A DNA stretch of 38,582 bases from a virus. Positions 1,057-21,689 of the stretch are shown piece by piece. A program made the position numbers and the translations under genes. The notes under the pieces are model-generated. The model saw only the letters and a program-made list of their open reading frames with translations, was not told the DNA's origin and ran no database searches. The stretch spans positions 1 to 38,582 of the IMG/VR virus record IMGVR_UViG_3300050821_007104. One strand, 5' to 3'. Every line of letters starts with the position of its first letter. Position 1 is the first letter of the stretch.

Positions 1057-1442
1057 GCCTGCGCCTTGGCGTCGAGCTCGACTGCGCGCTGCGTCAGGTT
1101 GGCCAGCGTCGCCGCGTACTTGGCGAGGTCGCGCGCGGTGTTGGCTGCCGCGAGTGGCTTGAGGTTGCCGCGCTCGACGATCTGCTCGACGATGCCCGCG
1201 AGCCGCGCGATTTCCTTGGCGACGAGCTTGGTCTCGCGGTCGAGTCCCGGCTGCGGCTCGCGCACGTGCTGCGGCTCCGGCTGCAGGGTGAGCTTGCCGT
1301 CGCAGCCCCTGCGCTTGTGCGCCCCGCGCCAGCGCATGAGCCACGCGCGCAGCTCGCCGCCGGTCGCGTTGACGTCGGGCACGAGCACGCCGCACTCGGT
1401 GCAGGTCAGGCTCGGCAGCTTGGCGGTGGTGGTGTCGGTCAT
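1053..1442 (-). CDS. Hypothetical protein with N-terminal zinc knuckle and helical C-terminus
   Basis: A 129-residue protein, first gene of the operon. CTECG near residue 14 and a C47-type cysteine around RRGCDGKL form a possible metal site. Residues from about 65 onward are a long charged helix (ETKLVAKEIARLAGIVEQIV) suited to oligomerisation. Start support is strong: an AACC-repeat leader and an AAGGAG Shine-Dalgarno directly precede ATG 1442. A promoter with overlapping operator lies at 1479-1506. No enzyme motif is visible; a DNA- or protein-binding role is a guess. Confidence 0.75.
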   Translation of the reverse strand: MTDTTTAKLPSLTCTECGVLVPDVNATGGELRAWLMRWRGAHKRRGCDGKLTLQPEPQHVREPQPGLDRETKLVAKEIARLAGIVEQIVERGNLKPLAAANTARDLAKYAATLANLTQRAVELDAKAQA

Positions 1443-1478
1443 GGTTGGTTGCTCCTTGGTTGGTTGGTTGGTGGTTCC

Positions 1479-1506
1479 ATCCTAACTCATGCCTGACTTA
1501 AGTCAG
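1479..1506 (-). promoter_or_regulatory. Promoter with palindromic operator (P1)
   Basis: On the minus strand, -35 CTGACT (1501-1506), a 16-nt spacer and -10 TAGGAT (1479-1484). The -35 is embedded in the perfect 14-bp palindrome CTGACTTAAGTCAG (1493-1506). The TGA stop of the upstream membrane-protein gene (1503-1505) also lies in the palindrome. It drives the 1442-554 operon. Repression by a dimeric regulator binding the palindrome is inferred. Confidence 0.7.
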
Positions 1507-1916
1507 ACCGTATCGCCACCTCGATCGGGTGAACTCGCGACGAGCCTGCGTCGGCTCGTGACGAGCCAGCCGAGCCCGACGAGGGTGACGACCGCACCGA
1601 CGCCCGTCGACGTCCAGGCGAGCGCGTCGCGTTGATTCTGGTAGCACTCCAGCTCGCTATTGGTGTCCATGAGCGCGCGCTGCGCGAACGGCAGCGCAGT
1701 CACGCGCGGGTCGGTCGAGATCGTCTCGAATGTCGCGACCTGACTTGAGTTGATCGAGTAGTTGGTGCCGCAGCTCTGCACGTCGCCGAAATACGTCGCG
1801 TCAGTGTGTACCGGCCGCGTGCCGACGATGACGCCGAGGATGAGCACGAGCAGCCCGAGCGCGAGCGTGATGAGCGCAGCGAGCGAGCTGCGTGCCTTGG
1901 TGGTCGTGGTGGTCAT
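1503..1916 (-). CDS. Two-segment membrane protein
   Basis: A 137-residue protein with a hydrophobic segment at about residues 11-34 (SLAALITLALGLLVLILGV), an extracytoplasmic-type middle with several cysteines (SCGTN, ELECYQ), and a second hydrophobic segment at about 100-122. The C-terminus is basic then polar. I placed the start at ATG 1916 because AAGGAG lies 8 nt upstream inside an AACC-repeat leader. An in-frame ATG at 1949, overlapping the stop of the 23-residue gene as ATGA, would add 11 residues encoded by the leader itself. Two starts a few codons apart is a pattern known from holins, but the holin candidate is elsewhere. Role unknown; an envelope or superinfection function is possible. 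Confidence 0.7.
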   Translation of the reverse strand: MTTTTTKARSSLAALITLALGLLVLILGVIVGTRPVHTDATYFGDVQSCGTNYSINSSQVATFETISTDPRVTALPFAQRALMDTNSELECYQNQRDALAWTSTGVGAVVTLVGLGWLVTSRRRLVASSPDRGGDTV

Positions 1917-1945
1917 GGTTGGTGCTCCTTGGTTGGTTGTCGCGC

Positions 1946-2017
1946 TCATGAGAGCGCCTTGCCGATCGTGCGGCACACGTGCGCCGCGAACAGTAGAACG
2001 AGAATGATCATTTGCAT
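1946..2017 (-). CDS. Tiny hydrophobic peptide (23 residues)
   Basis: A short reading frame, MQMIILVLLFAAHVCRTIGK plus three residues, preceded by a perfect AGGAGG ribosome site 4 nt before the ATG. It ends in an ATGA overlap with the alternative start of the membrane-protein gene at 1949. It is one short membrane segment followed by a basic end. It could be a genuine small membrane peptide or a leader that couples translation. The strong ribosome site is the main support. Confidence 0.5.
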   Translation of the reverse strand: MQMIILVLLFAAHVCRTIGKALS

Positions 2018-2059
2018 AGCCTCCTGAGAGCTTGGATTGATAGGGTCGGCTGCGCGGGT

Positions 2060-2080
2060 GTTCTTCCTTGGTTGGTTGCA
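2060..2080 (-). promoter_or_regulatory. Orphan AACC leader / Shine-Dalgarno without a gene
   Basis: On the minus strand, GCAACCAACCAAGGAAG matches the leader found before about ten genes here, but no ATG, GTG or TTG follows at a usable distance. It sits between the hairpin at 2089-2125 and the 23-residue frame. Probably the remnant of a cassette that lost its gene. Confidence 0.4.
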
Positions 2081-2088
2081 CCTGCAGC

Positions 2089-2125
2089 GCGAGGACCGTC
2101 AGACCCATAGGGTGACGGTCCTCGC
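2089..2125. terminator. Hairpin terminator after the SprT-like gene
   Basis: GCGAGGACCGTC (2089-2100) pairs perfectly with GACGGTCCTCGC (2114-2125): 12 bp with a 13-nt loop. It begins 13 nt beyond the stop of the SprT-like gene at 2138. No clear T tract follows. Confidence 0.6.
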
Positions 2126-2137
2126 GTCATATTCGCG

Positions 2138-2890
2138 TCAGGCTGCCTCGGCGAATACCTCGCCGCAGAGCTTGCACGTCGGCGTGCAGTCCTCCAGCAC
2201 GCCGCGCGACGCGCGGATCGACTTGCCGCAGCCGCACTCGGCCTTGATGAGGTTGCGGTTGCCGCGCTTGCGAGGCTCGACCGGGGTCGACTCCTCGCCG
2301 CCCTCGACCGCAGGCGCGGTGCCCTTGATCGCGACGCCCGCGACGACCGGCCGCACCGAGACCGCTGCAGCCTTGGCGAGTCCGGCCGAGAGTGCCTTGA
2401 GGATCGCCGCGTGCGACGCCTTGCCCTCGTCCGAGAGCTCGGTGCCGGTCCAGCCGTGCCAGCCGACCGAGGTGACCGTCAGGCCATGCTCCTCGGCGCG
2501 AGCCTTGAACTGCAGGTTATGGCGACCGTTGACGTCGGTGTCAAGGATGCCCGCGTGCAGGTTGCGCGCGTGCGCAGCCTCGTGCAGCAGCGTCGCGAGG
2601 ACGAACTCGGGACCGCGCCGCAGGTTCTCACCCGAGATCATGATCTCGTAATGGGTCGCGTTGTCCTCGTCCTCGACGAGTTTCGCCGAGCTCCAGACCT
2701 TGCCGACGGTCGTGTGACCCCACGCCTTGCTATCGCGCTTGACGACGATCGTCGCGTCGGGGGTGCCGGGGTAGCGCTTGGCGATCTTGCGGTATGCCGC
2801 CTCGATCGCAGCGACTGCAGGCGAGAGGTCCGCGCCGAGCATCGTCGACGGCTGAACGTCCTCGCGGGCAATGGTTTCGTTGCTGGTCAT
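2138..2890 (-). CDS. SprT-like zinc metalloprotease-family protein
   Basis: A 250-residue protein with the zinc-metalloprotease signature HEAAH at residues 103-107 within LATLLHEAAHARN, as in SprT/Spartan-like proteins. A further histidine-containing helix (GRHNLQFKARAEEHG) follows, and a C-terminal zinc ribbon carries cysteines at about 219, 221, 235, 239 and 242. SprT-like proteins cut DNA-crosslinked proteins in eukaryotes; phage members are of unknown role, possibly clearing host proteins from DNA. It is a single-gene cassette: promoter with two operator copies (2918-2958), AACC leader and AAGGAG before the ATG at 2890, and a hairpin terminator at 2089-2125. The family call is fairly secure, the substrate unknown. 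Confidence 0.8.
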   Translation of the reverse strand: MTSNETIAREDVQPSTMLGADLSPAVAAIEAAYRKIAKRYPGTPDATIVVKRDSKAWGHTTVGKVWSSAKLVEDEDNATHYEIMISGENLRRGPEFVLATLLHEAAHARNLHAGILDTDVNGRHNLQFKARAEEHGLTVTSVGWHGWTGTELSDEGKASHAAILKALSAGLAKAAAVSVRPVVAGVAIKGTAPAVEGGEESTPVEPRKRGNRNLIKAECGCGKSIRASRGVLEDCTPTCKLCGEVFAEAA

Positions 2891-2917
2891 GGTGTACTCC
2901 TTGGGTTGGTTGGTTGC

Positions 2918-2958
2918 TGACGTAAGTCAGAATATGCGAGGTGTCTGACGTAAGTCAA
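2918..2958 (-). promoter_or_regulatory. Promoter with two palindromic operators (P2)
   Basis: Two operator copies lie 27 bp apart: CTGACGTAAGTCAG at 2918-2931 and a one-mismatch copy at 2945-2958. The upstream copy contains -35 TTGACT (2953-2958); with a 17-nt spacer the -10 is TATTCT (2930-2935). The second palindrome falls over the -10 and the expected transcription start. Double occupancy would block both polymerase binding and escape. It drives the SprT-like gene. Confidence 0.7.
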
Positions 2959-2982
2959 ACCACGTTCGGGTGAAAACACCGA

Positions 2983-3008
2983 GAGCCGGACCCCGCAGGG
3001 TCCGGCTC
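2983..3008 (-). terminator. Hairpin terminator after the 81-residue gene
   Basis: GAGCCGGACCC pairs with GGGTCCGGCTC, 11 bp with a 4-nt loop, 8 nt past the stop at 3016. On the minus strand it is followed by TCGGTGTTTTC, a moderate T tract. The stem sequence closely resembles the terminator at 3356-3383. Confidence 0.75.
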
Positions 3009-3015
3009 CTTGATG

Positions 3016-3261
3016 TCAGTCGGTCGCGTCGAGCTTGGCCCACGTCAGCGAGTGCGCGCGGCCGGTGCGCTGGCCATCGGCATCGAAAATGTGCCAATCC
3101 TGCCCGGTCATCTGCCAACCCTTGCGGATCGCTTGCCCGGTCCAAGGGTTGAGGTATTCGCTGACGTAGAGCTCGCCGTCGACGCGAAAGCTGCTGCCCT
3201 TGCTCTTGATCCACACGAGATCGTTGCGGTGCGCTTGGTTCTGCTCGACTGTCCGGTGCAT
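3016..3261 (-). CDS. Hypothetical protein, single-gene cassette
   Basis: An 81-residue protein rich in W, H and charged residues, with beta-strand-like alternation (GSSFRVDGELYVSEYLN, GWQMTGQDWHIFDADGQRTG). No transmembrane segment and no cysteines. Not recognised. It has its own promoter-operator (3294-3321), an AACC leader with AAGGAG before the ATG at 3261, and its own terminator (2983-3008), so it is expressed independently. This layout is typical of cargo (moron-like) genes in temperate phages. Confidence 0.75.
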   Translation of the reverse strand: MHRTVEQNQAHRNDLVWIKSKGSSFRVDGELYVSEYLNPWTGQAIRKGWQMTGQDWHIFDADGQRTGRAHSLTWAKLDATD

Positions 3262-3293
3262 GTTGACTCCTTGGCTTGGTTGGTTGTTCCTCT

Positions 3294-3321
3294 AGTCTAA
3301 CTCGCGTCCTGACTTAAGTCA
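3294..3321 (-). promoter_or_regulatory. Promoter with palindromic operator (P3)
   Basis: -35 GTGACT (3317-3322) overlaps CTGACTTAAGTCA (3309-3321); 17-nt spacer; -10 TAGACT (3294-3299). It drives the 81-residue gene at 3261. Confidence 0.7.
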
Positions 3322-3355
3322 CATCGGCACGGTATGGCATGCGCCACAAACGAAA

Positions 3356-3383
3356 GGAGCCGGACCCCGTAGGGTCCGGCTCC
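3356..3383 (-). terminator. Hairpin terminator after the 273-residue gene
   Basis: GGAGCCGGACCC pairs with GGGTCCGGCTCC, 12 bp with a 4-nt loop. On the minus strand it is followed by TTTCGTTTG. It lies 14 nt beyond the stop at 3398. Confidence 0.8.
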
Positions 3384-3397
3384 GGCTCGGCTCTCGG

Positions 3398-4219
3398 TCA
3401 GCGACTCTCGCGCTTGATCTTGGCGGCTGCCTTGGCCTGCAGCTCGGCCGTGACCTGCTCGACCGACTGCCCGCGCTTGTGTGCGAGCGCCTCGGTCAGC
3501 TTGGCCACGTACTCGGCATCGAACCGGTAGCCGTAGAGCGTGTGATCGGCGATCTCGTTCACTGCCTCGGTCTGCGCGGTGCGCTCGGCCTTGATGACGC
3601 CGTAGCGCCCGCGCAGCGGTGAGCCGTCGACGTCCGTGATGCCGGTCGCTGCAGCCTTGGCAGCGCGAGCGGCAGCCTTGGCCTCGCGCTCGATGCGCGC
3701 AGCCTTGCGGTCGGGAGCCTCGAAAGTGCTCTTGCGCTTGAGCACGTCGACCGGTGCGCTCGGGTAGCACACCGTGCAGGCTGCCTCGCCTGCGCGCTCG
3801 ACGATCTCGCTCTCGGCGTCGCCCGAGACCTCCGGCAGCCAGGCGAATTGGGTCGAGGGGAAGCATGACGCGCAGTACATCGAGGAGTGCACGTGCCCGC
3901 CAGTGTTGGTGACGAGGTAGGCCCGCGTCCAGGTGCCGCGCCGAATGTATTCGGCCTGCAGCGGGTCCGACTCGGCGATGATCGCGTCGAGCGCATCGCG
4001 CGCGTCGGCGAGCTCACTCTCGGTCTGCGCGAGCGATGCCTTATAGCTCTCGGTCATGAGCGAGAACGTCTCGCGCGCAATGTATGTGCGGTAGTTCTCG
4101 ATGCGCTTGGCCAGCATCGCGACGTGCTGCTGCGCCTTGCCCTGCCGTGTCCAGATCTCGGCGAGCTGCGCGTCGATCTCTTTCGGCGTCTGCGCCTGCA
4201 GGTTGGTGGTGGTGGTCAT
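3398..4219 (-). CDS. Hypothetical protein: coiled coil plus zinc-binding centre
   Basis: A 273-residue protein. Residues about 10-90 form long charged helices (coiled-coil like, EIDAQLAEIWTRQGKAQQHV). The centre contains a metal-binding arrangement, HSSMYCASCFPSTQ (about 112-125) and CTVCYPSAP (about 148-156). An alanine/arginine-rich helix follows, and a C-terminal segment (GQSVEQVTAELQAKAAAKIK) resembles a small helical DNA-binding tail. ATG 4219 has AAGGAG and an AACC leader; its own promoter-operator is at 4256-4283 and its terminator at 3356-3383. Proteins with this plan recur in actinophage accessory regions with no known role. Nucleic-acid binding is inferred only. Confidence 0.75.
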   Translation of the reverse strand: MTTTTNLQAQTPKEIDAQLAEIWTRQGKAQQHVAMLAKRIENYRTYIARETFSLMTESYKASLAQTESELADARDALDAIIAESDPLQAEYIRRGTWTRAYLVTNTGGHVHSSMYCASCFPSTQFAWLPEVSGDAESEIVERAGEAACTVCYPSAPVDVLKRKSTFEAPDRKAARIEREAKAAARAAKAAATGITDVDGSPLRGRYGVIKAERTAQTEAVNEIADHTLYGYRFDAEYVAKLTEALAHKRGQSVEQVTAELQAKAAAKIKRESR

Positions 4220-4255
4220 GTCGAGCTCCTTGGTTGGTTGGTTGCTTGCTCGTTG

Positions 4256-4283
4256 AGCTTACCTCCTGTCCTGACTTAAGTCA
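4256..4283 (-). promoter_or_regulatory. Promoter with palindromic operator (P4)
   Basis: -35 ATGACT (4279-4284) overlaps CTGACTTAAGTCA (4271-4283); 17-nt spacer; -10 TAAGCT (4256-4261). The TGA stop of the upstream 79-residue gene (4281-4283) is inside the palindrome. A 31-bp block including the palindrome and CCCGATCGGGTGAA is nearly identical to the one at 6155-6185. Confidence 0.7.
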
Positions 4284-4520
4284 TAATCCCGATCGGGTGA
4301 ACTCTGCGGCAGCGTCCTCCGGTCCCTGCGTCGAGCCGACCCTGCTCGGATCGCCGTCGCCTGCGCGCCAGCCCTGCGCCTCGGCGATCGCCGTCACGTG
4401 CTGCCAGCTGACCGAGTCGCTCGGCATGCGCCAGAACGTGCGCGGGTTGAATCGGTTGCCGCCCTTGACGATGACGTCGGCCTGCGCGGTGACGCGCTCC
4501 AGCCGATGCCTGCCGCTCAT
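4281..4520 (-). CDS. Hypothetical protein, last gene of the 5.66-4.28 kb operon
   Basis: A 79-residue protein with a basic N-terminus and a W-containing middle (NPRTFWRMPSDSVSWQHVTA). No membrane segment or cysteines. Its ATG overlaps the upstream stop (ATGA, 4517-4520). Its stop codon lies within the operator of the next promoter, so binding of a regulator there would also meet polymerase leaving this gene. Function not recognised. Confidence 0.7.
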   Translation of the reverse strand: MSGRHRLERVTAQADVIVKGGNRFNPRTFWRMPSDSVSWQHVTAIAEAQGWRAGDGDPSRVGSTQGPEDAAAEFTRSGL

Positions 4521-4720
4521 GGCTGCTCGTAATGCTCGGCTGCCGCGCGCAGCACCCGCTGCTCATCGGGTGCGAGCACCGCGTCATCGAGCTCGACCTC
4601 GACATACCCGCGCTCGCGCAGCATCTGCTGCACCGCCGCGAGCGCCTCGGCACTCGTCAGCCCGCCGTACCGCGTCGTCAATGTGTCGACGATCGATCGC
4701 ACAGTGCGGGTGCCCATCAT
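4517..4720 (-). CDS. Small hypothetical protein
   Basis: A 67-residue helical protein (SIVDTLTTRYGGLTSAEALAA, MLRERGYVEVELDDAVLAPDE). It looks like a small winged or three-helix domain, but no family is recognised. ATG 4720 overlaps the upstream TGA as ATGATG, and it overlaps the next gene by ATGA. Translational coupling along the operon is likely. Confidence 0.7.
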   Translation of the reverse strand: MMGTRTVRSIVDTLTTRYGGLTSAEALAAVQQMLRERGYVEVELDDAVLAPDEQRVLRAAAEHYEQP

Positions 4721-5379
4721 GAGCCGACCGGGGTGAGATCCATGAGCCGCCGCAGTGCCTTGGTCACGCGCCCGTCGAGCACCGCCGCCTCGTTCTCCTC
4801 GGATACCTGCCCGGTGCCGGACACGAGCAACCAAGGCTCGCCGCCGCCGCGCTCGGTGATCGTCTGATAGGTGCGCCCCGCTCGGTCGGTCATGACCACG
4901 ATCCTGCACTCGACGCGGTCGGGGTGCTTGTGCATCTCGCGCGCCGCTGCTGCCGCCTCGTATTGGTCACGCTTGGCGACGTCGCGGTTGGCCGTCGAAA
5001 GCATCCATGCCTCGGTCACGAACAACCAAGCGACGATGTCAGCGTGTGGCATGTGAACGATCTCGGACTCGTCGCGCATGATGCTGCAGAGCATCTCGAT
5101 ATAGGCGATCGGGTGCGTCTCGCCCGGCAGCGGTGGCAGGTGCAGCTGCCCGACCGAGAGCCCGAGCAGATCATCCTCGGCGTCCTCGACGCGCATGACC
5201 GTGCAGAGTCGCGCGTCGTCATCCCATACGTCACGCTCGGCGAGCTCGATGGTCGAGAGCGCCAGCGCACACGCGAGGGTGTACGTCATCGCGTCGACCG
5301 ACTCGTCGTCGAGTAGTCGCACGAGCGTCTCGCTCATCGTGTGAGGCTGACCGACTGCCCGGCCGTCATCGTCCGGCAT
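4717..5379 (-). CDS. Hypothetical acidic protein
   Basis: A 220-residue acidic protein without recognisable motifs. A helical N-terminal half (LVRLLDDESVDAMTYTLACALALSTIELAERD) and a mixed C-terminal half (VECRIVVMTDRAGRTYQTI). It starts inside the end of the 99-residue gene (14-nt overlap); GAGGAG about 8 nt before ATG 5379 supports this start. An internal ATG 14 codons downstream (MSETLVRLL) is an alternative. Part of the 5665-4281 operon. Function unknown. Confidence 0.7.
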   Translation of the reverse strand: MPDDDGRAVGQPHTMSETLVRLLDDESVDAMTYTLACALALSTIELAERDVWDDDARLCTVMRVEDAEDDLLGLSVGQLHLPPLPGETHPIAYIEMLCSIMRDESEIVHMPHADIVAWLFVTEAWMLSTANRDVAKRDQYEAAAAAREMHKHPDRVECRIVVMTDRAGRTYQTITERGGGEPWLLVSGTGQVSEENEAAVLDGRVTKALRRLMDLTPVGS

Positions 5380-5665
5380 TGCGTAGCTCCTCCTCGTGCT
5401 TGGCCGTCAGCGCCGCGCCGAGCGCTGCGAGTGCCGCAGCCTTGGCTGCCTGCAGCGTCGGCTCGTTGCCGGTCGTGATGAGCAGCGACTCGCCGAGCGC
5501 GTTGCGCTTGGTCCGGTCGAATACCTTCCACGTCCACTCGTGGTACTCGGCCTTGACGACGAGATAGCAGCCGGTGCCCGGTACGTCGAGCTTGCGGTGT
5601 GAGATCTTGCGACGCCAATCGACGCCGTCGATGTAGCGCACGGTCTCCCACTTGGTGCCGGTCAT
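5366..5665 (-). CDS. Hypothetical protein
   Basis: A 99-residue protein. The first 60 residues look like a beta-sheet domain (TVRYIDGVDWRRKISHRKLD, CYLVVKAEYHEWTWKVFDR) and the last 35 are a helix (LQAAKAAALAALGAALTAKHEEELRNAG). ATG 5665 has an AACC leader with AAGGAG. No promoter is visible between this gene and the terminator at 5710-5740, so transcription must come from read-through or a promoter I do not recognise. First gene of a four-gene operon to 4281. Confidence 0.75.
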   Translation of the reverse strand: MTGTKWETVRYIDGVDWRRKISHRKLDVPGTGCYLVVKAEYHEWTWKVFDRTKRNALGESLLITTGNEPTLQAAKAAALAALGAALTAKHEEELRNAGR

Positions 5666-5709
5666 GTGTCGCTCCTTGCTTGGTTGGTTGGTTGGTGGGG
5701 AAACGCGAA

Positions 5710-5740
5710 AGGACCCCCGGCAGTATCTGCCGGGGGTCCT
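5710..5740 (-). terminator. Hairpin terminator after the 116-residue gene
   Basis: AGGACCCCCGGCA pairs with TGCCGGGGGTCCT: 13 bp with a 5-nt loop, followed on the minus strand by TTTCGCGTTTCC. It starts 8 nt past the stop at 5748. Confidence 0.8.
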
Positions 5741-5747
5741 CATTTTG

Positions 5748-6098
5748 TCAGTACATGATCGAGTAGATCGCGCTGTTCCACACGCCGAGCTTGTTCGCGT
5801 TGACGCCGAGCCGCTTGCACTCGGCCGCGATCTGACTGCGGTATGTCTTGCGACCGAGGTGCGCAGGCAGGTCGATCTGCACCCGGCAGTGCCGCCCGTC
5901 GGCGAGCTCACCCATCGCATAGGAAAGATCGAATACCGGGTAGCCGTACTCGGTCAGCAGCCGCACGCGGGTCAGCTTGGCGATCTCATCGAGCCCGAAC
6001 GCGCGCCCGTTGTCGGCGAGCGTGTCGAGGTATTGACCCCAATCGTTCGTGAAGTCGTTGATGTTGTTGGTTTCGATGACGCCGTAGTTGTCGCTCAT
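5748..6098 (-). CDS. Hypothetical protein, single-gene cassette
   Basis: A 116-residue soluble protein (DFTNDWGQYLDTLADNGRAFG; a later segment GRHCRVQIDLPAHLGRKTY). Asparagine-rich ends and one or two cysteines; no known motif. It has its own promoter-operator (6140-6167), AACC leader and GGGAG before ATG 6098, and a strong terminator, so it is an autonomous unit. Function not recognised. Confidence 0.75.
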   Translation of the reverse strand: MSDNYGVIETNNINDFTNDWGQYLDTLADNGRAFGLDEIAKLTRVRLLTEYGYPVFDLSYAMGELADGRHCRVQIDLPAHLGRKTYRSQIAAECKRLGVNANKLGVWNSAIYSIMY

Positions 6099-6139
6099 GG
6101 TGTGCTCCCTTGGTTGGTTGGTGTTGCGGTTGTTCCACT

Positions 6140-9047: not shown

Positions 9048-9451
9048 GACTCACCCGCCGTCAGAGTCGCCTTGTGAGTCGGAGCCTTGCCAGCTTTCAA
9101 CGTGCGCAGGTTGCCGCGCTCCAGACTGGCGACTCGAATCGTTGCGCGAGCGTCCGAATCCATGAAACCTGCCGCCGAAAGATAGCCCTCGGGATAGGTG
9201 TACCAACTAGCCGTGATACGACCTCGACCGTCGAGCTCTTGATGCTTGACCGTGCCGCATCGTATGCATTCCATCTCGACCGAGTAATACCGATACCGCT
9301 TGCTATAGCTTGCGTTTCGACCTTCCCATGCATGCATGAGCGAGCGGCAGACCAGTATCTGATCTGACCAGCGAGCCGCCTCCTGCTCGACGGTGACCTC
9401 GTGCCCCGGTGTTGGCTCGCTTGTGACCATTTTTAACCTCGGCTGACTCAT
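9044..9451 (-). CDS. Hypothetical protein with CxxC knuckle, first gene of the 9.45-6.14 kb operon
   Basis: A 135-residue protein. The middle contains H-A-W and Y-rich stretches and an EMECIRCGTVKHQEL knuckle (about 58-72), suggesting a zinc site shared with C35 and H40. The pattern resembles a widespread actinophage family of unknown function (short CRSLMHAW...CxRCGT). ATG 9451 is preceded by a double AACC leader (9452-9480) and GAAAGGA. The operon it heads contains about 13 tightly coupled genes. Confidence 0.75.
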   Translation of the reverse strand: MSQPRLKMVTSEPTPGHEVTVEQEAARWSDQILVCRSLMHAWEGRNASYSKRYRYYSVEMECIRCGTVKHQELDGRGRITASWYTYPEGYLSAAGFMDSDARATIRVASLERGNLRTLKAGKAPTHKATLTAGES

Positions 9452-9500
9452 TTGGTTGGTTGTTCCTTTCGTTGGTTGGTTGCGCAGCTTAGACCGGCTG
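9452..9500 (-). promoter_or_regulatory. Leader and possible promoter of the 9.45-6.14 kb operon
   Basis: On the minus strand, TAAGCT (a -10 identical to P4's) is followed by GCGCAACCAACCAACGAAAGGAACAACC and the start codon. No good -35 is visible at the right distance and there is no operator palindrome. Weak promoter call; transcription may also arrive from the HTH gene upstream. Confidence 0.35.
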
Positions 9501-17592: not shown

Positions 17593-18834
17593 TCACCCGT
17601 TCGCCGAGACGTTGTCCGGGATACCGGACACCTTGACCGCCGATAAGCTGCGCCCGACTGCCGCTTGATGGTCGTCGGTCGTGTGCTGGTAGATCGTCGA
17701 CGCCCCGCTGCCGGGGGTATGACCGGCCTGCCGCTCCAGCTCGGCCAGCGTCACGCCCGGCAGCCTGCCGTACATCGTGAGGTGCGAGTGCCGCAGGTCG
17801 TGGTACGAGAGTCCGGGCAGTCCGGCAGCCGCCGCGACTCTGCGCCATTGCTTGTTGAACGTCGCCTGCTGCAGGTGCCGCGCAGGGTCGGACGCGCTCG
17901 GGAATAGCAGCGCGTCCTCGCCGCCGAAATAGTTGCCGAGGTGCTCGACGAGTGCCGGTCGCAGCTGCGCAGGGATCATGACGTCACGCACGCCCGCCTT
18001 GCTCTTGGGGGTGCCGACGACGAACTCGCCCGGCTTGCCGCCGGTCCCACGGACCCACACGACGCCCCGGCTGACATGGATCACGCCCGCCTTGAGGTCG
18101 ATGTCCTTGCGTCGCAGCTCGGTCGCCTCGCCGTACCGCAGACCGGTCCAGATGCCAAGGAGAGGCATCAACGCGAGGCGCTCGGGCAGACCGACCTCGT
18201 CGGCCGAACGACCGACCCAATGCCCGTCAGCGTCGCGGGGTCGGTCCGGCAGTCCGATCGTCAGCTTGGCCAGAATGTCCGTCGATTGGATCATCTCCAG
18301 CGTGACGAGCTGCTGCGGCTTGGCGCGCTCGGGTGACTGCCCCGCGCCCCGCGTCGTGCATGGGTTGGACGCGACGCCGTAGTCCTCCTCGGCGATCGCC
18401 CACGCCATGATCGACTTGAGCAGCGAGTAACAGTGCGCGCGCTGCGTCGCCGTCGCCTCGGGCATCGCCCGGTGCCAGCGCTTGACCGTGCGCCGATCGA
18501 GCTCGTCGACCGGGATCGCGCCGAGCGTCGGCAGGATGAGCCGGTCGAGCTGACTGCGGTAGAGCCGCCGCGTCGAGTCCTTGAGCTTGCGCACGGTCAG
18601 GAACTCGTCGGCGACCTCGGCGAGCGTCGCGTGCTCGCTGACCTCCTCCGGCTCCGGTGTGAGCGGCTCGTTGCGCGCGATCTTGCCCGAGGCACTCTGC
18701 AGCCACGCCCGCGCCTCGCCCTTCTGCGCGAACGTGACGGGCGCATACTGCCGACGCCCGTCGAGCATGAAACTCGCCTGCCAGCGGGTCGAGCGCATCT
18801 TGACGATGCTGCCGAACGACTCCCTTGATGCCAT
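17593..18834 (-). CDS. int: Tyrosine integrase
   Basis: A 413-residue site-specific recombinase. An N-terminal arm-binding region (about 1-65, with YAPVTFAQKGEARAWLQ), a core-binding domain (about 70-160) and a catalytic domain with R233 (GLRYGEATELRRKDI), K278 region, H345-x-x-R348 (YHDLRHSHLTM), H372 (QAGHTP) and the nucleophile Y382 (TIYQHT). ATG 18834 has AAGGGAG and the AACC leader in front. attP lies about 170 bp upstream, the usual arrangement. It indicates a temperate phage that integrates at a tRNA-Pro gene. No operator palindrome is near, so its control differs from that of the cassette genes. Confidence 0.95.
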   Translation of the reverse strand: MASRESFGSIVKMRSTRWQASFMLDGRRQYAPVTFAQKGEARAWLQSASGKIARNEPLTPEPEEVSEHATLAEVADEFLTVRKLKDSTRRLYRSQLDRLILPTLGAIPVDELDRRTVKRWHRAMPEATATQRAHCYSLLKSIMAWAIAEEDYGVASNPCTTRGAGQSPERAKPQQLVTLEMIQSTDILAKLTIGLPDRPRDADGHWVGRSADEVGLPERLALMPLLGIWTGLRYGEATELRRKDIDLKAGVIHVSRGVVWVRGTGGKPGEFVVGTPKSKAGVRDVMIPAQLRPALVEHLGNYFGGEDALLFPSASDPARHLQQATFNKQWRRVAAAAGLPGLSYHDLRHSHLTMYGRLPGVTLAELERQAGHTPGSGASTIYQHTTDDHQAAVGRSLSAVKVSGIPDNVSANG

Positions 18835-19343: not shown

Positions 19344-19505
19344 TCAGGCAGGGTCGGGGGTGCGCGGGTCGTCGTCGCTGCCGCCCTCGTCGTCGTCGTA
19401 CGGTGCGAGCACCTCCTCGGCGACCTCGACCTCGGGTGCCGGTAGGTCGGGGGTCGCAGGCTCGGCAGGCTCCTCCGGCTCGCGTATCTGCATGTCGTCA
19501 CTCAT
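19344..19505 (-). CDS. Very acidic small protein next to the holin
   Basis: A 53-residue protein rich in P, E and D (REPEEPAEPATPDLPAPEVE, VAPYDDDEGGSDDDP-like end). No hydrophobic segment. ATGA overlap with the holin gene. It is shorter than the usual 60-residue cutoff for gene calling but has the right composition and coupling. It could be a lysis regulator (antiholin-like partner) or a linker protein; not recognised. Confidence 0.6.
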   Translation of the reverse strand: MSDDMQIREPEEPAEPATPDLPAPEVEVAEEVLAPYDDDEGGSDDDPRTPDPA

Positions 19506-19852
19506 GGCTCTCTCGTCCTCTCGTTGGTGGTGGGGTGAATCTCTTGCGGGTCGTCGCTCGGGTGCGGGTACGGGGGTGCGGGTGCCGCGATCGGTGCGTC
19601 AGGTACCTCGGCGATGAGATGCCCGCGAGCCAGCCAGCCGGACACTGCGCCGACGGTCGCCGCAGCGACCGTCGAGAGCGCAGTGAGCGCGTCGGCTGCC
19701 TCGGCATTTTGCGTCGGCTTGACGACGACGACGATGATGCCGCAGACCGCGAGCACGCCGACCGCGCCGAGCATGAACAGACCGGCCAGCCCGAGCACCC
19801 GCTGCGTGCGTTGGTTGGACTCGGCTGCGCGGTGCCGCCCCCCGTTGGCCAC
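19502..19852 (-). CDS. Holin (two membrane segments)
   Basis: A 116-residue protein with a basic N-terminus (residues 1-20), a first membrane helix (about 24-44, GLAGLFMLGAVGVLAVCGII), a short loop (KPTQNAEAAD), a second weaker helix (about 55-75, LSTVAAATVGAVSGWLARG), and a long proline-rich hydrophilic tail. Small two-helix proteins just after the endolysin are typical actinophage holins. The GTG at 19852 starts 1 nt after the endolysin stop. Holin function is inferred from topology and position. Confidence 0.75.
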   Translation of the reverse strand: MANGGRHRAAESNQRTQRVLGLAGLFMLGAVGVLAVCGIIVVVVKPTQNAEAADALTALSTVAAATVGAVSGWLARGHLIAEVPDAPIAAPAPPYPHPSDDPQEIHPTTNERTREP

Positions 19853-19853
19853 G

Positions 19854-20096
19854 TCAGCCGATACCCGCGCGCTTGAGTGCCTCCTGACACGCGACCATGA
19901 CGCGGTCCTTGAACTCCTGCGTTGCACCGAACTGCGTCGAGCCTGCTTTCGCCTGCGCGGTGGCGGTGCTCGCGTTGCGCGAGAGCGACTCGTTGCACGC
20001 CTGCATCACGCGGTCTCGGAACTCCTGCGTTGCCGCGAACGAGCGTGCGCCCGCCTCGGCGAACGACTTCATCTGCGCCTCGGTGTATGGCGTCAT
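19854..20096 (-). other. Probable internal start: endolysin C-terminal domain made separately
   Basis: In-frame ATG 20096 inside the endolysin gene is preceded by CCACCAACCCAAGGAG and GAAGAC, the same AACC leader and Shine-Dalgarno used before whole genes here. The resulting 80-residue product would be the two repeats ATQEFRDRVMQACNESL and ATQEFKDRVMVACQEAL. Some endolysins of other phages are known to make such a wall-binding subunit from an internal start. Product not proven. Confidence 0.55.
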
Positions 20097-20756
20097 GTCT
20101 TCCTCTCCTTGGGTTGGTGGTACTGGGGTCGTGCCACTACTGCCGCCGCCGCTCACACGTGCAGCGACTCGCTTGCGCAGCTCGACGCCACCCGGACCAC
20201 CCGGACCGCCGAGCCAACTCATGTCGATCTTTCGGTTGGTGTGCTCGCCGTGCATGATGCTCGTGTTTGGCGACTGCCCGAGGACGATGCAGCGCGACGC
20301 GTTGAGCGCGACCGTCGCGTCGATCATCGCGTCGGGGTACGGCGAGGAGTCGCCCGGATGCAGCAGCTCGACGCCGTCGAGATCTTGGTTGCCGGTGTAG
20401 TCATTCTTTGGCGGGTGCCAGCCGGTCGGAGCCTGCCCCGCCTTGATCCGCGCCAGCACCGACGAGTCACCCTTGCCCGCGTGATTCATCGGCCCGGTAC
20501 CGCACAGGTAGATCACTCCAGCCGCGTCGATGACCCAGTTGACCGTCTTGCCGTTGGTGAGCGAGTCGACGAACGGCTGCGGGTTGGCGGGGGGTGCCAG
20601 CGGGCAGACGTAATGGTGATTCACCTGCCCGGCACGGTCGCCGCCGTGCCAGCTCGTGCCGTTGCTGCGCCCGTAGCAGCCCGGCTGCTCCTTGACGGTG
20701 AACCCCCACGACCGGAGCAGCTTGACCTGCTCGGGGTAGCTCGTGCTCGCGCTCAT
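19854..20756 (-). CDS. Endolysin: N-acetylmuramoyl-L-alanine amidase
   Basis: A 300-residue lysin. The amidase-2/PGRP domain spans about 1-180: VNHHYVCP (45-52) with the first zinc histidine, a central NWVIDAAGVIYLCGTGPMNH strand and H92, and HGEHTNRKIDMSW (169-181) with the last zinc and catalytic residues. A glycine/proline linker (about 184-218) leads to a C-terminal region with two copies of an ATQEF(R/K)DRVM-x-AC-x-E-x-L repeat (residues about 242-258 and 277-295), likely the cell-wall binding part. It cleaves the peptide from the glycan at lysis. ATG 20756 overlaps the upstream gene as ATGA; an internal start at 20096 is proposed. Confidence 0.9.
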   Translation of the reverse strand: MSASTSYPEQVKLLRSWGFTVKEQPGCYGRSNGTSWHGGDRAGQVNHHYVCPLAPPANPQPFVDSLTNGKTVNWVIDAAGVIYLCGTGPMNHAGKGDSSVLARIKAGQAPTGWHPPKNDYTGNQDLDGVELLHPGDSSPYPDAMIDATVALNASRCIVLGQSPNTSIMHGEHTNRKIDMSWLGGPGGPGGVELRKRVAARVSGGGSSGTTPVPPTQGEEDMTPYTEAQMKSFAEAGARSFAATQEFRDRVMQACNESLSRNASTATAQAKAGSTQFGATQEFKDRVMVACQEALKRAGIG

Positions 20757-21028
20757 GCCTGCACCTCGTCGCCCTCGGCCTCGCTGGAGAGCCACGCCTG
20801 CACCGACGAAAGGATCATGCCGTCGGTGATGACTGCGGGGTCCTTGCCCGGCAGCGGGTCGTCGGATGCGAGCGCACTGGCCCACGCCTCGGCCCAGCCT
20901 GGCGCGCCGCAGATGACGAGGAAATCGACGGTGCGATCCTGCGAGCCGGTCTCCTGCGCCACGCATGCGTAGATACGGCTCTGCAGGTCGAGATCGCGCG
21001 CCATACTTGCGATGTCCCAATAACTCAT
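20753..21028 (-). CDS. Hypothetical protein upstream of endolysin
   Basis: A 91-residue protein (MSYWDIASMARDLDLQSRIY, VDFLVICGAPGWAEAWASAL, then a helical acidic end). From memory, similar small proteins beginning with W-x-IA-x-M-x-xD stand between the last tail gene and the lysin in many actinophages; their role is not known to me. AAAGGA 8 nt before ATG 21028; ATGA overlap with the endolysin. Confidence 0.7.
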   Translation of the reverse strand: MSYWDIASMARDLDLQSRIYACVAQETGSQDRTVDFLVICGAPGWAEAWASALASDDPLPGKDPAVITDGMILSSVQAWLSSEAEGDEVQA

Positions 21029-21056: not shown

Positions 21057-21674
21057 TCACATCGGCCACGTCTGCGCGATGAGCTGCCCGAGCGGCGCAC
21101 CGTAGAGCCCCGCCGCCACGCCGCAGCTGATCGTCGCGCTGGCGGTGCCCGATGCGTTGGCAGCCAGAGCGACGAACGCCTCCAGATGGATTCCCTGGTA
21201 AGGGGTGACGCCGCGCGTACCGTTGCCGATCGAGCCGCCATTCCATAGCAGCGTGAACGAGCAGAACGTCGTCGCGGTTGCGAGCACGACGTCGAGCGAA
21301 ATCCGCACGAGCCGTTGATATGGCTGCGCGGTGATCGGGCAGCCCGAGCCGATCCCCAGGGTGCCGCCGCCGGAGCCGATGTTCACTGTAGGGAGCGCAG
21401 GTGCCGCATAGTTGAGCGCCTTGGGGATCGCCGCGACGTCGGTCGCGTCGGTCAGCTGCACCCATACGCCCGCGCGCAGCCGGTACGGCACGCCCGCGAC
21501 GAAACACATGCCGAACGTCGCGCCCGCCGTCACTGCCGCGTCACGCGCCGCCGTCGTGGCGAATGCCGGAACGATGACGTTGTCGAGTTGGTTGGCGAGC
21601 GAGAGCATGTCGCTCGGCACGTTCGGGGGTGCCCCGATGTCAGGTACGACGAGCCCTGTCTTGCTAGTTGCCAT
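21057..21674 (-). CDS. Minor tail / receptor-binding-type protein
   Basis: A 205-residue protein. The N-terminus contains PDIGAPPNVPSDMLSLANQL, then AFATTAARDAAVTAGATFGM, a segment often found at the start of phage tail-tip proteins ('TTAARDAA...G' head binding repeat). The rest is beta-rich (GVWVQLTDATDVAAI; LVRISLDVVLATATTFCSFTL), as in fibre heads. Being the last tail gene before lysis suits a host-range role. ATG 21674 was chosen because AAGGAG lies 8 nt upstream; the GTG at 21683 overlaps the ribosome site. Confidence 0.7.
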   Translation of the reverse strand: MATSKTGLVVPDIGAPPNVPSDMLSLANQLDNVIVPAFATTAARDAAVTAGATFGMCFVAGVPYRLRAGVWVQLTDATDVAAIPKALNYAAPALPTVNIGSGGGTLGIGSGCPITAQPYQRLVRISLDVVLATATTFCSFTLLWNGGSIGNGTRGVTPYQGIHLEAFVALAANASGTASATISCGVAAGLYGAPLGQLIAQTWPM

Positions 21675-21689
21675 GTCCTGCACTCCTTC

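Follow-up and report, generated by a model that had tools for sequence, protein, structure and literature searches.

Does the endolysin gene of this phage encode one polypeptide or two? The window analysed here, meaning the whole stretch of 38,582 nucleotides, is a 38.6-kb phage record in which the minus strand carries most genes and a structural set (terminase, portal, head, tail and tape-measure genes) was identified. Inside the lysin gene, an in-frame start codon with its own ribosome-binding site lies between the catalytic part and the C-terminal module, and the stop codon is common to both possible products. We consider it very likely that the gene specifies a Type II two-polypeptide endolysin, comprising the full amidase and a separate 80-aa C-terminal piece. 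The features concerned are listed below, with a hyphen in peptide motifs marking the position of the start codon.

21057-21683: gene without assigned function, upstream of the 91-aa gene
20753..21028, minus strand: 91-aa gene with leader, directly upstream of the lysin
19854..20756, minus strand: endolysin, full-length, 300 aa, 31.7 kDa; Amidase_2 domain, linker and C-terminal helical repeat module
20754..20756, minus strand: ATG of the main lysin start, which shares bases with the stop codon of the preceding gene (ATGA)
20097..20153, minus strand: linker, residues 202-220, containing the leader; disordered or of low confidence in the model
20105..20120, minus strand: in-frame leader copy CCACCAACCCAAGGAG, encoding PPTQG(E), 0 mismatches
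20101..20110, minus strand: Shine-Dalgarno (SD) core AAGGAGAGGA; AAGGAG ends 8 nt, and GAGGA 4 nt, before the ATG
20094..20096, minus strand: internal ATG, Met221, in frame with the amidase ORF (PPTQGEED-M)
19854..20096, minus strand: predicted second product, 80 aa, 8.6 kDa (8615 Da), pI 8.8
19977..20060, minus strand: C-terminal repeat 1, AEAGARSFAATQEFRDRVMQACNESLSR
19869..19952, minus strand: C-terminal repeat 2, AKAGSTQFGATQEFKDRVMVACQEALKR
19502..19852, minus strand: probable holin, GTG start 1 nt past the lysin stop
17593-18834: integrase, downstream of the probable holin

The lysin and its genomic setting

The catalytic part of the protein was recognized by the Pfam Amidase_2 profile (E=1.4e-7, 32.3 bits against a curated cut-off of 26), and the lysin matched the endolysin family phrog_880 (E=3e-17). 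Residues H37, E130, H169 and D178, which we take to be the zinc and catalytic residues by analogy with AmpD, are conserved in an alignment of 43 lysins. A structure model built on the same alignment reached a mean pLDDT of 69.6, with the best amidase blocks at 87-94, and comparison with solved structures placed AmpD and amidase endolysins on top, weakly (E=2-4e-3, the best 2.4e-3). The single-sequence fold was uninformative (pLDDT 39.6).

In the alignment-based model the linker is poorly ordered, with pLDDT <50 at residues 215-222 and no secondary structure across residues 202-225. Met221 is modelled at the end of this unstructured stretch, just before the helices of the short product (226-239, 244-270 and 279-296; confidence ~56-75). 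The first-pass annotation had described an 80-residue product consisting of two repeats, and this description holds: the ATG is in frame, the product is 80 aa long and the repeats are 51% identical across about 35 aa, with a period of 36 residues. A search for known binding or oligomerization domains recognized none in the 80-aa module, and comparison of the C-terminal module with solved chains found sequence similarity to none. A similar DRVxxAC-like stretch occurs in the repeats and in the 91-aa upstream protein, but kinship between the two was ruled out by profile comparison.

Hydropathy shows two hydrophobic segments in the probable holin, the stronger around residues 18-44 and the other around 52-74, and family searches with it returned no match. 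Homologues of the 91-aa gene product (37-51% identity) are encoded in Microbacterium phages, one to a few genes before lysin A. Together with L347-L350 it belongs to a conserved small family found near lysin A in Microbacterium phages, with the motif MSYxxIAxxARDxxLxxR...PGWAEAW...VITDxMILxxVQ. A host in the Micrococcales is likely, judging from sequence relationships, because the portal protein is nearest to those of Arthrobacter phages (45% identity) and the 91-aa protein to those of Microbacterium phages (up to 51%). Nearly the same phage is present in another record, L002 (IMGVR_UViG_3300021403_000070), a 14.9-kb contig with a portal protein 100% identical to that of the window, which stops short of the lysin.

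A start leader used across the phage

Many gene starts of this phage carry a leader in which (CAAC)n precedes AAGGAG or a close variant; the leader stands 5-9 nt ahead of the ATG. At <=3 mismatches, 11 matches were found in the window, against 0.18 expected by chance. It had been proposed that the leader marks real gene starts elsewhere, and nine other starts do carry it at that distance (1442, 1916, 2890, 3261, 4219, 5665, 6098, 18834 and 21028). The lysin copy had been placed 10 nt before the internal ATG; it is present exactly, but the spacing is 8 nt. When a weight matrix was built from the nine other starts only, with the lysin site held out, the lysin site scored 21.1 and ranked sixth of all window positions, amid genuine gene starts. 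A first-order Markov null produced zero sites scoring as high.

Most of the leader-bearing starts lie at 1.4-6.1 kb (1440-6121, minus strand), mostly before small genes, and the structural genes that were checked are without the leader. It is possible that the starts in this region form a separate expression class. A strong orphan leader, GCAACCAACCAAGGAA, occurs at 2064-2079 (minus strand), upstream of the gene starting at 1916 and without ATG or GTG at the usual distance. Tandem leaders, CAACCAACGAAAGGAA then CAACCAACCAAATGAG, occur at 9447-9483 (minus strand), the second abutting a probable ATG. Outside this phage, CAACCAACCAAGGAG followed by ATG recurs in L062, L095, L104 and >100 other viral contigs, several of which contain 4-7 near-copies, all pointing the same way; on these sequence matches, leaders of this sort may be widespread.

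The leader inside the lysin is spelled in unusual codons. Five of its codons (CCA CCA ACC CAA GGA GAG GAA GAC) are used by the genome in 4-18% of cases (CCA.09, CCA.09, CAA.18, GGA.05, GAA.04), and no other stretch of eight codons in the lysin is as rare; among 6005 such windows from 14 genes it falls in the lowest 0.2%. Synonymous recoding with the codon usage of the phage equalled the leader in 9 of 200,000 versions (P=4.5e-5, allowing up to one mismatch against the leader family).

The RNA around the internal ATG is also unusually open. The stretch from -30 to +20 folds at -3.2 kcal/mol, compared with a gene median of about -16, which places the site in the top 0.1% of 5519 in-gene positions and makes it opener than each of the other 180 in-frame ATG/GTG codons within genes. 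In 3000 synonymous recodings (mean -14.4) this value was never reached. Other gene starts with the leader in this window are likewise open (-0.5 to -10.5). The main lysin start has no CAAC leader and lies in a structured context (-14.2 kcal/mol), with an SD duplex of -9.5. The internal SD pairs with CACCUCCU at -7.7 kcal/mol, and a value <= -7 is reached at 1 of the 180 other in-frame codons. It should be noted that a generic SD match is weak evidence here, as 49% of synonymous recodings reach -7. The combination of a rare-codon leader, its synonymous P value of 4.5e-5 and open RNA absent from all 3000 recodings leads us to conclude that selection acted on the nucleotides at the internal site, and not on the peptide alone. 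A second internal start, at 20221-20223 (CACCAACCGAAAGATCGACATG), was taken as chance on account of its low score, structured RNA and location inside a conserved K-x-D amidase motif.

Predicted internal starts at the domain boundary of other lysins

Close relatives of the lysin or of its 80-aa module were sought in viral contigs, genome contigs and phage records, and none were found. A sequence search of 23 records of portal-related phages, run without a positive control, also gave zero relatives; in one of these records (G018) the lysin is of another kind and carries peptidoglycan-binding repeats. Recurrence was examined at the level of the domain layout. An amidase profile search, annotated phages and the lysin of the window together gave 88 lysins, reduced to 50 by C-terminal clustering; this set is biased to relatives of Streptomyces phage lysins, and its 60%-identity clusters are partly dependent.

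A boundary start was defined as an SD of <= -7 kcal/mol with an in-frame ATG or GTG 5-32 residues past the amidase. Such a start was present in 26 of the 50 non-redundant Amidase_2 lysins, that of the window included, whilst the control counts in the same lysins were 1 and 0 for the other frames and 1 for the module interior. The lysins that revealed the pattern also served to test it, although the controls by frame, valine and synonymous recoding are independent of that choice. A synonymous null gave 12.1±2.1 boundary starts (maximum 19 in 300 trials), and the peptide therefore explains about half of the boundary starts, with nucleotide-level selection as the remainder. Where a valine follows the acidic stretch it is encoded by GTG in 11/11 cases, against a background of 34% (P=6e-6). 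Portal genes of related phages contained 11 in-frame SD-starts in 12,716 codons, compared with 26 in 1,350 at the lysin boundaries. Compared with the rest of each gene, the RNA at the boundary starts is open (median at the 8th percentile), an openness that is partly a general property of linkers. Since 18 of the 50 lysins also have in-frame SD-starts within the amidase domain, predicting an internal start does not by itself amount to proof. Some of these amidase-internal starts adjoin a conserved MxxMRxRV helix.

The boundary start is mostly absent from lysins with peptidoglycan-binding or LysM C-termini, and it is not confined to amidases. VanY-type lysins carry it in Cicada (KEDD-M), in Warren (KESDN-V) and in 7/11 contigs of one VanY set. 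The lysins of Nicole72 and Smarties, which have a different catalytic part, read GGGGDD-M, with GGAGGAGG before the ATG. EEDD-M and GGGGDD-M use different residues for the same ribosome site, which matches the prediction of RNA-level selection. The CAAC leader itself is this phage's own; in distant relatives a predicted internal start lies at the corresponding boundary. Replication in genome contigs was underpowered, with 12 new clusters and EDD-M in 2 of the 3 that have a real C-terminal module. No relatives of the Smarties lysin were found in viral contigs, and two actinophage C-terminal modules sought as stand-alone genes in phage records gave none. Another C-terminal lysin module, ~140 aa long and probably rich in beta structure, recurs in L187, L199, L209, L210, L253 and L265; a query with the L209 copy had zero matches in phage records.

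The predicted short product and known two-polypeptide lysins

In the first-pass annotation the C-terminal repeat module was given its own internal translation start, and the leader, codon bias, RNA openness, domain boundary and distant lysins agree with that reading. We infer from the sequence that the short piece is produced; by analogy with characterized lysins, it would assemble with the full-length enzyme and bind the wall. In the model we propose, initiation at 20756, probably by coupling to the stop codon of the preceding gene, would give the 300-aa amidase, while other ribosomes would load at the in-frame leader (20105-20120), start at the ATG at 20096 and make the 80-aa helical C-terminal piece. 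Free pieces would most likely join the C-terminal module of the full enzyme, as in Lys170 and LysIME-EF1, giving the enzyme extra wall-contacting modules. With the internal site open and the main start structured (-14.2), the short piece may outnumber the full enzyme, in line with published lysin complexes at 1:3 and 1:5 ratios in which the short piece is in excess. Against such an excess, the SD of the main start is the stronger by duplex energy (-9.5 vs -7.7).

The short product could instead act alone, as a lysin regulator or separate lysis factor that does not join the full enzyme. There is a precedent in LysJavan488, whose two polypeptides showed no interaction (PMC9430671), and the module matches no recognized wall-binding family. 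We consider this unlikely, as assembly has been demonstrated in lysins with one catalytic and one binding part, which is the layout here (PMC9430671).

A further explanation, which we regard as improbable, is a recent in-frame fusion to an amidase gene: the module would have begun as an independent gene, complete with leader, and the leader would now be an unused fossil. The leader is indeed intact and complete, like those of stand-alone genes; very different actinophage modules follow the same SD-start boundary, as if modules were exchanged with their start signals; and a fusion origin has been raised for Type I lysins too (PMC12203907). However, a fossil would be expected to decay, and here neither the leader nor its rare codons nor the open RNA shows decay; the recurrence of the boundary start and the GTG kept in 11/11 cases also favour use. 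Nor was a stand-alone copy of the 80-aa module found in the viral contigs, genome contigs, phage records and related records searched. A fusion origin followed by continuing use is compatible with the two-polypeptide explanation.

It is most improbable that PPTQGEEDM was selected as a hydrophilic linker that spells the leader by accident: acidic linkers do spell GAGGAG in G+C-rich genomes, and about half of the synonymous versions of this gene's site reach the SD threshold, but this specific leader requires five rare codons and the open RNA was never reproduced. It is just as improbable that CAAC-AAGGAG serves as an attachment site for a phage regulator and not as a ribosome signal. One strong copy (2079) does lack an ATG at the expected spacing, but almost all strong ones are found on the coding strand, 5-9 nt ahead of an ATG, and include the SD.

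Returning to the two-polypeptide reading, the comparison of lysins raises a broader idea. The chances seem to us about even that the border between catalytic and C-terminal parts in many actinophage lysins is a start cassette under nucleotide-level selection, with modules swapped together with the start and most of these lysins being heteromers. On this view the cassette, an SD with ATG or GTG written as EEDD-M/V or GGGGDD-M, would span unrelated catalytic parts and modules, and the window lysin would be its extreme form, with the start leader of the phage itself built in. Should boundary starts prove general in actinophages, a sequence rule (an acidic or glycine stretch spelling GGAGG, then M or GTG-coded V at the domain border) would flag lysins that probably need a co-expressed tail piece, and would suggest how C-terminal modules are exchanged. 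An assay of one lysin chain by itself may leave out a portion of the active enzyme.

Internal in-frame starts in endolysins and phage-specific start-associated sequences are both established. What is new is the in-frame use of a phage-wide start leader, together with nucleotide-level evidence in actinophage lysins; a limited literature search found no published description of the EEDD-M/V signature. The in-frame leader is unusually clean evidence because its rare-codon and RNA-structure footprint goes beyond protein-level selection.

The closest parallel to the leader is the Start-Associated Sequences (SAS) of Cluster K mycobacteriophages, likewise a phage-specific repeated motif directly upstream of many starts (PMC3203893). 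The SAS sequence, GGGATAGGAGCCC, is unlike the leader of the window, and the part of that source available to us mentions no in-frame copy inside a lysin. The LysA proteins of mycobacteriophages Ms6 and Pollywog (Type I) are also actinobacterial phage lysins with two products per gene, but their short product retains the catalytic domain, whereas the piece predicted here is the C-terminal module only.

Of 3780 endolysins from phages that infect Gram-positive bacteria, about half were predicted to have internal starts, and four were confirmed (Pinto et al. 2022, PMC9430671). The group with one catalytic and one binding part makes a binding-only piece, and heteromers are known there (PMC9430671). 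CTP1L, CD27L and CS74L of clostridial phages and LysP7951 of a Streptococcus phage have, like the window lysin, a catalytic domain and a C-terminal module with an internal start between them; their heteromers, 2:2 or 1:5, have been demonstrated, whereas assembly of the window lysin is proposed by analogy. For LysIME-EF1 and Lys170 of Enterococcus phages, the sources as far as available to us report no phage-wide leader of the CAAC kind, and describe a binding domain that forms a tetramer ring, in contrast to the two helical repeats predicted here. The catalytic part of LysIME-EF1 is a CHAP domain, as opposed to Amidase_2. Nevertheless, the same accounts place an internal RBS and ATG between the catalytic and C-terminal parts of both enzymes, as in the window lysin, and in LysIME-EF1 the proven internal RBS, AAGGAGA, which yields an 8-kDa piece (PMC7098653), is identical as reported to the heptamer of the window lysin.
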